A DNA stretch of 64,000 nucleotides from Brevibacterium epidermidis NBRC 14811 (GTDB taxonomy: Bacteria > Actinomycetota > Actinomycetes > Actinomycetales > Brevibacteriaceae). Positions 40,881 through 64,000 of this stretch are shown here, piece after piece. Location of the stretch: the NCBI RefSeq assembly GCF_001570805.1, contig NZ_BCSJ01000015.1, forward strand, positions 248,001 through 312,000, read 5' to 3'. Position numbers and translations under genes: made by a program. The notes beneath the pieces are model-generated. The model made no database searches. It saw only the letters and a list, made by a program, of their open reading frames with translations, and was not told the DNA's origin. Numbering within the stretch: position 1 is the first letter of the stretch; each line of letters begins with the position of its first letter.

Positions 40881-40942
40881 CAGCGGGTTCAAAATTCATA
40901 CGCACTGATCAGGATCACCACATATGAGTTTTGAACCCGCTG
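40881..40942. terminator. Long inverted repeat between converging genes
   Basis: 20-base arms (40881-40900 and 40923-40942) pair with one mismatch around a 22-base loop. It lies between the stops of two converging genes and is less GC-rich than its surroundings. No T tract. Confidence 0.6.
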
Positions 40943-46560: not shown

Positions 46561-49929
<3,369 letters not shown>

Positions 49930-50052
49930 TGGAATACATCCCGGACCCGGGAGGTTCCATGGTGCGGCTGTGATTCGTTCGTAACCGAACTCGAAGTCGG
50001 GGTTCAGACTCAGCCAAGCTCAGAGACAGCTTCGAGTGGAAGAGTGTGGGAC

Positions 50053-50523
50053 ATGAGATGGATTCCCCGACTCCTCGCCGGCACCTGCGTGGTCGTCGCC
50101 GCGGCCCTGACCGCAGTGCCGGTGACGGCAGGCCTGGCAGACCTGGTTCTCAACCCGGGACCGAACAGCACCAAACGCAGTGCTCAGCCGGCACTGACGT
50201 CCATGCGCACTCCGGCCGCACCGGCCACTGCGCGAACCGAGGAGTCGACGACCGCATTCGTCGGCGACTCGACAGATGATCATGAGGTCATCGAAGGCAC
50301 CATCGTCGATGATTCGAGTGCAGCCGCCGCACTCTCGACCGGCACCGAACTCGTCGCAGCCACCACGGCCGACGCTCAGTCCCGTATCGCCGATCTCTCT
50401 GCCGACCTGCAGGCCGGAGTCTCGGCCGGCGAGTTCACCCAGGCCGACGCCGACCGCGTCCTCGCTGACATCGCCCCCTACATCCACGGCGACCGCACCT
50501 GGCCCGAACGCCTCACCTCCTGA
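50053..50523 (+). CDS. Small secreted or membrane-anchored protein
   Basis: 156 residues from ATG 50053; GTG 50044 is also possible. An N-terminal hydrophobic stretch (about 5-33) is either a signal peptide (ends near V-T-A-G-L-A) or an anchor. The rest is Ala/Thr/Ser/Asp-rich with one helix-forming segment at the C-terminus (S-R-I-A-D-L-S-A-D-L-Q-A-G-V). Not recognised. A perfect 64-base palindrome begins three bases after its stop. Confidence 0.6.
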   Translation: MRWIPRLLAGTCVVVAAALTAVPVTAGLADLVLNPGPNSTKRSAQPALTSMRTPAAPATARTEESTTAFVGDSTDDHEVIEGTIVDDSSAAAALSTGTELVAATTADAQSRIADLSADLQAGVSAGEFTQADADRVLADIAPYIHGDRTWPERLTS

Positions 50524-50525
50524 CA

Positions 50526-50589
50526 ATTACTACCTGACGGCGGCCCAGCAACCTCGCGCGAGGTTGCTGGGCCGCCGTCAGGTAGTAAT
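50526..50589. repeat. Perfect 64-base palindrome
   Basis: Every base from 50526 to 50557 pairs with 50589 to 50558; I checked the pairs in order. The ends ATTACTACC/GGTAGTAAT are AT-rich and the centre is CGCG. It starts just after the stop of the small secreted protein gene. On a transcript it makes one long stem without a loop. It has no T tract. It could be a strong terminator or a mobile palindromic unit. Confidence 0.95.
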
Positions 50590-50676
50590 GGGGGAAGGTC
50601 ACAGCGCACCGTCGGAACCGCGTCCGGTGGAGAGACTAGACTGGGGGCGAGTGAAAACGACGATGAAAGGCAGGGA

Positions 50677-50982
50677 ATGACGGAGTCTTCCGCAATCACC
50701 CCCGAACAGGTGGAGCATCTGGCTTCACTGTCTCGGATCGCCATGAGCGAAGACGAGCTGAAATCGCTCGCCGGTGATCTCAGCACAATTCTGGGAAACG
50801 TCGCCAGGGTCAACGAAGTGGCCGGCGACGACGTACCCGCAACCAGCCACCCCATCCCGCTGACGAACGTCATGCGCCCCGACGTCGTGGGCGAGACGCT
50901 GACCAGCGAACAGGCACTGGCCTCGGCCCCGGCCGCCGAGGACGACAAGTTCCTCGTCCCGCAGATCCTCGGGGAGGAATGA
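50677..50982 (+). CDS. gatC: Aspartyl/glutamyl-tRNA amidotransferase subunit C
   Basis: 101 residues. Typical N-terminal helices [15 protein letters not shown] and the C-terminal F-L-V-P-Q-I. GatC clamps GatA to GatB. It is followed by gatA with a one-base gap. Confidence 0.95.
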
Positions 50983-50983
50983 G

Positions 50984-52486
50984 ATGACCGAACTGACGAA
51001 CAAGAGCGCCCTCGAACTCGCCGCAGGACTGAAATCCGGTGAGTTCTCCTCCGTCGAAGTCACGCAGTCCCACCTCGACCGCATCTCCGCCACCGAGGAT
51101 GACTTCAACTCCTTCATCACCGTCACCGACGAACTCGCCCTGGAGACCGCGAAGGCCGTCGACGCCAAGCGCTCCGCCGGTGAGGACCTCCACGCCCTGG
51201 CAGGCGTCCCGGTGGCGCTGAAGGACCTCGTCGTCACCGAAGGTGTGGCCACCACTGCGGGATCGAAGATGCTCGAGAACTGGGTTCCGCCCTACGAGTC
51301 GACCGTGCACAACAAGGTCAAGGCCGCTGGTCTGCCGGTGCTCGGCAAGACCAACCTCGACGAATTCGCGATGGGATCGACGACCGAGCACTCGGCCTTC
51401 GGCAACACCCGCAACCCGTGGAACCTCGAGCACGTGCCCGGCGGTTCCTCTGGTGGTGCGGCCGCAGCCCTCGCCGGTTTCCAGGCCCCGCTGTCCGTGG
51501 GCACCGACACCGGCGGATCCGTCCGCCAGCCCGCAGCGTTCACTGGCACCGTCGGCGTGAAGCCGACCTACGGTTCGATCTCGCGCTTCGGCATCATCGC
51601 CATGGCCTCGAGCCTCGACCAGGTCGGGCCGATGGGCCGCAACGTCGCCGATGCCGCAGCTCTGCACGAACTGCTGGCCGGACACGATCCGCTCGATTCG
51701 ACCTCGCTGCCCGATGAGGTCGGCGGGTTCCTCAATGCCGCTCAGACCAGCGATCTCAAGGGCAAGAAGCTCGGCGTCATCAAGCAACTGGCCGGTGAGG
51801 GATACCAGGACGGAGTCCGCACCGCGTTCACCGCAGCCCTCGAGACCGCTGCTGCCGCCGGTGCCGAGATCGTCGAGGTCGACTGCCCGTCGATCTCCTA
51901 CGCCCTCGACGCCTACTACCTCATCATGCCCTCCGAGGTGTCTTCGAACCTGGCCCGCTACGACGGCATGCGCTATGGCCTGCGCGTCGAACCGGAATCC
52001 GGTCCCGTCACCGCCGAGACCGTCATGTCGGCCACTCGTGCCGCCGGCTTCGGCGATGAGGTCAAGCGCCGCATCATCCTCGGCACCTACGCTCTGTCGG
52101 CCGGCTACTACGACGCCTACTACGGTTCGGCGCAGAAGATCCGCACCCTGGTGCAGAACGACTTCGCGAAGGCCTTCGCCGCCTGCGACGTCCTCGTGTC
52201 TCCGACGACTCCGACGACCGCGCTGAAGTTCGGTGCGGAGAAGGCCGCCGACCCGATGGCCCTCTACCTCGGCGACGTCGCGACGATCCCGGCGAACCTC
52301 GCCGGCATCCCCGGACTTTCCCTGCCCGCAGGTCTGGCCGATGGTCTGCCCGTCGGCTTCCAGATCCTGGCTCCGGCCCGTGAGGACATCAAACTCTACG
52401 AGGTGGCCGGCCCCTTGGAAGCCGCACTCGAATCCGCCGGCGGACGCGTGCTCGACACTCTCGCGGAAGGACTGAACGCCAAGTGA
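50984..52486 (+). CDS. gatA: Aspartyl/glutamyl-tRNA amidotransferase subunit A
   Basis: 500 residues. Amidase signature: catalytic Lys in L-K-D-L near residue 80, G-G-S-S-G-G near 152-157 and D-T-G-G-S-V-R near 172 with the catalytic Ser. It releases ammonia from glutamine or asparagine for GatB to convert Glu-tRNA-Gln and Asp-tRNA-Asn. It lies in the gatCAB operon, and its stop overlaps the gatB start. Confidence 0.97.
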
Positions 52487-63514: not shown

Positions 63515-63562
63515 ATCGCCGAGGCGGTGCAGACGTCACGTCTGCACCGCCTCGGCGATTTT
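63515..63562 (+). terminator. Terminator of ilvD
   Basis: 22-base perfect arms (63515-63536 and 63538-63559) followed by TTTTG. Both arms contain the window's common 10-mer CGCCGAGGCG and its complement. Confidence 0.85.
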
Positions 63563-63940: not shown

Positions 63941-64000
63941 ATGGGCAAATACGTTCTGCGGCGGTTCATCAACTACTTCATCCTCGCGTTCATAGCGACG
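63941..64000 (+). CDS. ABC transporter permease, DppB type (partial)
   Basis: The first 20 residues, M-G-K-Y-V-L-R-R-F-I-N-Y-F, begin with the basic-then-hydrophobic N-terminus typical of peptide or nickel permeases. The gene runs off the window edge, so the family is likely but not certain. Confidence 0.65.
   Translation, partial: MGKYVLRRFINYFILAFIAT

Follow-up and report, generated by a model that had tools for sequence, protein, structure and literature searches.

How does a palindrome of 64 bases, perfect and without a loop, come to stand behind a stop codon in a Brevibacterium genome, and what keeps it perfect? Long loopless palindromes are expected to be unstable. The palindrome lies in a window of 64,000 nucleotides, by which we mean the whole stretch of DNA analysed. 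The initial annotation described it as a perfect 64-base palindrome following a small secreted-protein gene, considered it either recent or under selection, and offered a terminator and a mobile palindromic unit among its possible identities.

The palindrome and its setting

An inverted-repeat search bears out the described geometry: 64 of 64 bases belong to a perfect inverted repeat, whose 32-nt arms (50526-50557 and 50558-50589) are 100% complementary with 0 nt between them (Table 1). The scan of the window returned 34 inverted-repeat pairs, and no other matches the palindrome in length and perfection. By simple arithmetic, 64 kb of sequence would hold such a perfect pair of 32-bp arms by chance with a probability near 64000 x 4^-32, which comes to the order of 1e-15. 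Folded as RNA, the palindrome region reaches -73.1 kcal/mol, far more stable than 200 shuffled versions, which average -33.4 (sd 3.2; z = -12.4). The stretch 49900-51000 holds no site that resembles a terminator and has a T-run. Rfam gave nothing above its gathering cut-off in the search; its nine matches were all sub-threshold, the four best on the palindrome being microRNA precursors, an identity that we do not believe and rejected.

The palindrome ends a 159-aa ORF, with ligA upstream and gatC and gatA downstream. The ORF has a positional homologue, 45-46% identical, in two relatives (G024 and G018). It precedes the palindrome as annotated; the feature that suggests secretion is its hydrophobic N-terminus, and a Pfam search of the ORF gave nothing above the cut-off.

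Table 1. Features at and around the palindrome (window coordinates), and loci of interrupted copies
Feature	Position	Strand	Basis
159-aa ORF bearing the palindrome at its end	50044..50523	+	ORF list; Pfam; positional homologues in relatives
Stop codon TGA (50521-50523) and gene-side border CAATTA	50521..50529	+	sequence; core starts 6 nt past stop
Perfect loopless palindrome, family A copy	50526..50589	.	inverted-repeat search; own-genome search
56-bp family core CTACC...GGTAG	50530..50585	.	same length in 186 of 189 copies
Far border TAAT, then G-rich DNA without U-tract	50586..50597	+	sequence
gatC, next gene downstream of the palindrome	50677..50982	+	ORF list; Pfam
gatA, after gatC	50984-52486		ORF list; Pfam
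Loci with A palindromes split by IS110-family or rve-type elements	L441, L451, L453, L459		

The worry that the palindrome is an assembly artefact, a collapsed inverted repeat, can be laid to rest as having next to no chance of being right. Contigs of the organism's own draft genome (G000) do end within copies of the palindrome (C2, C4, C5, C6, C12, C13, C16, C18 and others), indicating that the repeat breaks assemblies; copy counts from drafts are therefore probably low estimates. Against an artefact, several assemblies made separately have the palindrome in the same gene gap, among them those of G019 and G012, each a single contig.

A dispersed family at gene ends

The initial annotation had suggested looking for copies in the genome and its relatives, and these proved numerous. 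The window palindrome is one of about 70 near-identical copies, here called family A, in its own Brevibacterium genome. A search of this genome found at least 40 places, each matched on both strands (the best 40 of 87 candidates were scored), and a 15-nt arm pattern with one mismatch allowed matched 69 + 66 = 135 times versus 3 + 3 = 6 for a reversed control. Clear expansions are present in 21 of 57 Brevibacterium genomes, with 55-84 arm matches per strand in 14, 30-36 in three and 7-16 in four; in the remaining 36, neither strand has more than 8. A search of 39 genomes gave matches in 14, all from one genus, and in none of the 14 genomes from other families. A scan of assembled contigs found at least 101 matching stretches, and all 80 among the matches listed are titled Brevibacterium. 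Searched with the palindrome, plasmids, phages and viral contigs gave no match, and a plasmid or phage origin was rejected on this ground. Searches of the open-access PMC literature on Brevibacterium palindromes, on gene-end repeats and on the sequence itself yielded no description of this palindrome family, and the available portions of two Brevibacterium genome papers (PMC5719810 and PMC6579920) do not mention the palindrome.

For the anatomy of the family we collected 189 distinct copies from several species, orthologues included, leaving out two duplicate loci (L003 and L005), copies less than 60 nt from a locus end and copies with more than four arm mismatches in all. The core is exactly 56 nt long in 186 of the 189. 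The consensus, CTACCTGACGGCGGCCCAGCAACCTCGC followed by its reverse complement, is a perfect palindrome; 68 of the 186 cores have no mismatched pair and 118 have one to five. Mismatch-free cores number 5 of 42 in the window's own genome, which places the window copy at the perfect end of the range. On the gene side of 125 copies that stand at the end of a single gene, the border consists mostly of C-rich DNA with AATT(A/G), the type found in the window being the third commonest. The commonest far borders of the same copies are TTCT and (T/C)AAT, followed by G-rich DNA, and a T-run or U-tract after the palindrome was found in none of them. Since the borders are orientation-specific, the two sides of the element differ, one facing the gene and the other away from it. 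The gene-adjoining arm departs from the consensus at 130 of 3500 positions versus 219 of 3500 for the far arm. What looked like a strand asymmetry along 2 Mb of G040 turned out to be an artefact, the far arm being present in most of the 20 stretches read.

The copies lie close behind stop codons. With genes called by a simple codon-usage script, so that single distances may be wrong, 155 of the 181 copies having a stop-facing gene start within 15 nt past the stop codon and 170 within 30 nt; random intergenic windows give 9.9% and 17.1%. A distance of 3 nt from the stop codon is the commonest, seen in 58 copies; in most of these, stop codon and border run together, as in TAATTA. By context, 69 of the 189 copies are convergent, 101 tandem and 6 divergent, one is inside a called gene and 12 have a missing neighbour, while intergenic gaps of at least 60 nt (n = 596) include 125 divergent and 77 convergent ones. 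For 42 copies, both convergent genes end within 30 nt of the palindrome.

Other hairpins were seen along the way. The 400-kb stretches from five genomes hold 95 long, near-perfect hairpins of at least 16 pairs that have at most a slight T-run. They are common where genes end in convergent or tandem arrangement; two are inside called genes and one is in a divergent gap. In the window itself, a perfect hairpin at 63515-63559 (22-nt arms, 1-nt loop, then TTTTGTG) has near-identical counterparts in the G019 and G018 stretches and looks like an ordinary conserved terminator. An imperfect palindrome at 40881-40942, around GGTTCAAA...TTTGAACC, occurs at four places in the same genome, with similar hairpins in stretches from other species, and is a member of a small third repeat family.

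Insertion sequences have landed in several family A copies. An IS110-family element (PF01548, PF02371) splits a palindrome in G000 (C2), and IS110-family elements split two more in G040, both at the same point before GTAG. Matching IS ends lie inside the palindrome at a contig end of G021 and also in L173. Another G040 copy is interrupted by a different element, which carries rve domains and has a 14-bp stretch repeated on both of its sides.

Age, symmetry and exchange

Judging from the positions that genomes hold in common, family A sites are old and common to several species. Within the 400-kb stretches, all eight sites are common to G019 and G012. G000 has seven of the eight, the eighth being a solo arm of doubtful descent; the four sites of G024 are all among the eight, and G018 has none. 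Aligned-DNA identity to G000 is 89% for G019, 92% for G012, 81% for G024 and 79% for G018, and the flanks at common sites are ~70-95% identical. Of the two options first proposed for the palindrome, recent origin is thus dismissed for the sites; as to the other, selection, symmetry is maintained by compensatory double changes at several pairs: core pairs 6, 12, 14, 16, 17 and 26 are paired more often than in all 300 shuffles, a comparison that ignores kinship among the copies, and pairs 20 and 21 show no covariation in the 186 cores. The intermediates comprise 27 G-U and 25 C-A pairs, and no G-U bias that would point to selection at the RNA level was found among them. With C-A about as frequent as G-U, an RNA stem alone may not explain the symmetry, and it is reasonable to infer that one arm is corrected by the other at the DNA level.

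Orthologous copies in G012 are closer than unrelated copies (mean 2.3 versus 4.0 differences). In G040 they are no closer (4.0 versus 4.0), and copies within G040 differ by 2.5; the same lack of orthologue closeness holds for G019, G005 and G024. The G019 orthologue mean is 4.1 without two of nine rows that mispair neighbouring sites, and 5.1 with them. That orthologues are no closer than unrelated copies in several genomes points to a partial homogenisation of family A within genomes, to which shared constraint could add. In a gatC-gatA tree, genomes with and without family A stand side by side, for example G005 next to G018 (support 0.87).

The same gene ends were compared in relatives that lack A at some or all of them. 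G018 has other hairpins at three of seven mapped ends: at s4, at s5 and at s6, where the hairpin is weaker and has a T-run. The four G024 ends that lack A all fall outside the stronger hairpins. The window's own site, s3, has no strong hairpin in the two relatives without A (ranks 179 of 217 and 149 of 192), and neither relative has one at s7. The proposition that every gene end with A needs a strong hairpin was rejected on the evidence of these two sites.

At s5, the hairpin of G018 is a member of another dispersed palindrome family, B (CTAAACCTCCCCGACGTCACTAAT ... ATTAGTGACGTCGGGGAGGTTTAG around GGCGCC), unrelated in sequence to A and with 44 nt between fixed points in all copies having both motifs. 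Among 28 genomes, s5 holds A in 10, a truncated, remnant or degenerate A-like sequence in three (G021, G041 and G066, the last judged by eye), B in five (G022, G011, G070, G018 and G054) and neither in 10. There, the flanks agree at 95-97% between G005, which has A, and G018, which has B. Seven of the nine distinct B slots over G018, G011 and G070 carry A in another species. A match on both flanks places A in other species at six B slots (P1, P2, L364, L367, L368 and L373), the match at L367 being loose at about 1 kb; s5 was scored for A and B by direct reading instead. Without s5, the two-flank test gives 5 of 8 for G018, 5 of 8 for G011, 5 of 6 for G070, 2 of 2 for G041 and 1 of 1 for G039, and a looser one-flank test gives more overlaps. 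Since A occupies only about 4% of gene ends with a gap of at least 40 nt (7 palindromes, 190 ends, G000), overlap by chance is unlikely, B slots having been compared with the collected A loci.

At P1 and P2, A is present in 10 of 21 genomes (incomplete at one end in G068 and G039) and B in five, never mixed. The gene between them (L010, L411-L431) is 63-95% identical to the query in A genomes and 46-52% in B genomes. This difference in gene type between A and B species makes P1 and P2 one linked exchange, as if palindromes and gene had been exchanged together. Recombination between related strains may explain the latest of the swaps between A and B. The exchange at the same gene ends is the surprising part of these observations and worth following. 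A bolder proposal, which we regard as rather improbable, is that a limited set of gene ends serves as exchangeable hairpin slots, each lineage filling them mostly with one family kept alike by slot-to-slot copying, and that the families displace each other, A by B or B by A, between genes 95-97% identical up to their stop codons. Such copying could proceed, for example, by repair after cleavage of an extruded palindrome or by IS110-type RNA-guided recombination.

Proposed role and known systems

We think it probable that family A, REP-like in character, supplies U-less hairpins at 3' ends by which transcripts are ended, insulated or guarded. When transcription comes from the gene side, the palindrome would give an RNA hairpin with a stem of about 28-32 bp that starts a few nucleotides past the stop codon. 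This hairpin would set the message's 3' end although no U-tract follows, halting or insulating transcription, in both directions between convergent genes, and would shield the mRNA end from exonucleases. Standing so near the stop codon, the stem may also slow the last ribosome. The proximity to stop codons, the few divergent contexts, the convergent pairs ending at the palindrome, the kept pairing, the orientation-specific borders, the commonness of T-run-free hairpins in the genus and the other hairpins of G018 at s4, s5 and s6 all support a 3'-end role. Speaking against it are the missing U-tract, the gene ends s3 and s7 that can do without a strong hairpin, and a sequence conservation that exceeds what a terminator needs; the unbiased intermediates argue against a purely RNA-level constraint. 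According to the title of one study, mycobacterial polymerase reportedly needs the U-tract. U-less terminators are common in mycobacteria, as stated in the accessible part of PMC8355165. The terminator and the mobile palindromic unit offered by the initial annotation are therefore each partly right: copies are located at gene 3' ends, as for a terminator, and make up a dispersed family, as for a mobile palindromic unit.

Alternatively, family A could be a palindromic element of mobile or selfish nature, like a REP or a MITE, which spread in trans; its persistence behind stop codons would then mainly reflect the harm done by insertions at other places, and any 3'-end role would be incidental. 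Dispersed near-identical copies with a patchy distribution across the genus would suit such an element, as would the sister genomes G005 and G018, which differ at s5 in the palindrome only, and paralogues about as alike as orthologues in several comparisons. We nevertheless find this explanation unlikely, given that G019 and G012 share all their sites in the 400-kb stretch and that no clean empty sites, insertion boundaries or target duplications were seen at the compared sites. In addition, the Y1_Tnp (PF01797) transposase of the RAYT type is present in 0 of 57 Brevibacterium genomes, the window's own included (the control matched 5 of 14 known genomes), and the precision of the 3-nt stop spacing and of the conserved borders goes beyond what avoidance of genes by itself would predict.

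Still less likely, in our judgement, is recognition of the duplex palindrome itself by a dimeric protein, nucleoid factor or recombinase, which would preserve the sequence and not an RNA hairpin. The tight tie to stop codons and the avoidance of divergent gaps do not suggest it, and an unrelated palindrome at the same gene ends speaks for structure and place outweighing this particular sequence. The fixed 56-nt length, the many invariant positions and the absence of a G-U bias would nonetheless fit, and loss or decay across whole lineages would agree with loss of a partner protein. A putative translational element, whose stem by the stop codon slows ribosomes and lowers the output of the upstream gene, has the lowest standing of these three and strikes us as very improbable: it would leave the convergent symmetry and the far border unexplained. 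Its appeal comes from E. coli REPs, which lower upstream output when within 15 nt of a stop codon, according to the consulted part of PMC12306157; 11% of E. coli REPs lie that close by the same partial source, versus 155 of 181 family A copies.

Despite the instability expected of long loopless palindromes, dozens in each genome persist at gene ends that species share, and their symmetry is maintained. This makes family A a natural setting in which to ask how perfect palindromes endure and stay alike and how actinobacteria end transcripts in the absence of U-tracts; families A and B together allow the same for how the hairpin at a given gene end changes its repeat family. Family A copies also account for breaks between contigs of Brevibacterium drafts and show where IS110 elements land.

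Several known systems resemble family A in part. REPs are reportedly targets of IS110-family elements such as IS621, the subject under which PMC1525189, PMC11208160 and PMC11187229 are listed; here too IS110-family elements lie inside a repeated palindrome, two at the same point, but the host is an actinobacterium. Like the REP/BIME sequences associated with RAYT, as far as the available part of PMC2817692 describes them, family A consists of many dispersed extragenic palindromic copies at gene 3' ends and is an IS target. It differs in being perfect and loopless, with a 56-bp core nearly always adjoining a stop codon. In RAYT-type REPs a GT(A/G)G head directly precedes an imperfect or interrupted palindrome (same partial source), whereas the GTAG of family A is the 3' end of the stem itself; with no Y1_Tnp in the 57 genomes, a RAYT-driven REP was rejected. 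With U-less intrinsic terminators, in the portion of PMC8355165 at hand, family A shares a GC-rich hairpin just past the stop codon and not between divergent genes, but it has almost one sequence at dozens of gene ends and no loop; from canonical intrinsic terminators, which likewise have a GC-rich hairpin soon after the stop codon, it is separated by the missing U-tract. The inverted-uptake-sequence terminators of Neisseria and Pasteurellaceae, by the part of PMC1852404 consulted, also double a repeated conserved sequence as gene-end hairpins; they are 9-11 nt long with about 1000 or more copies, in contrast to 56 bp, about 70 copies (69 + 66 arm matches in the window's genome) and constant pairing in family A. 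Lacking the head and the transposase of RAYT-type REPs and the U-tract of canonical terminators, family A is best described as REP-like and new, a set of loopless palindromes standing at the ends of genes that most probably act as U-less 3'-end hairpins.
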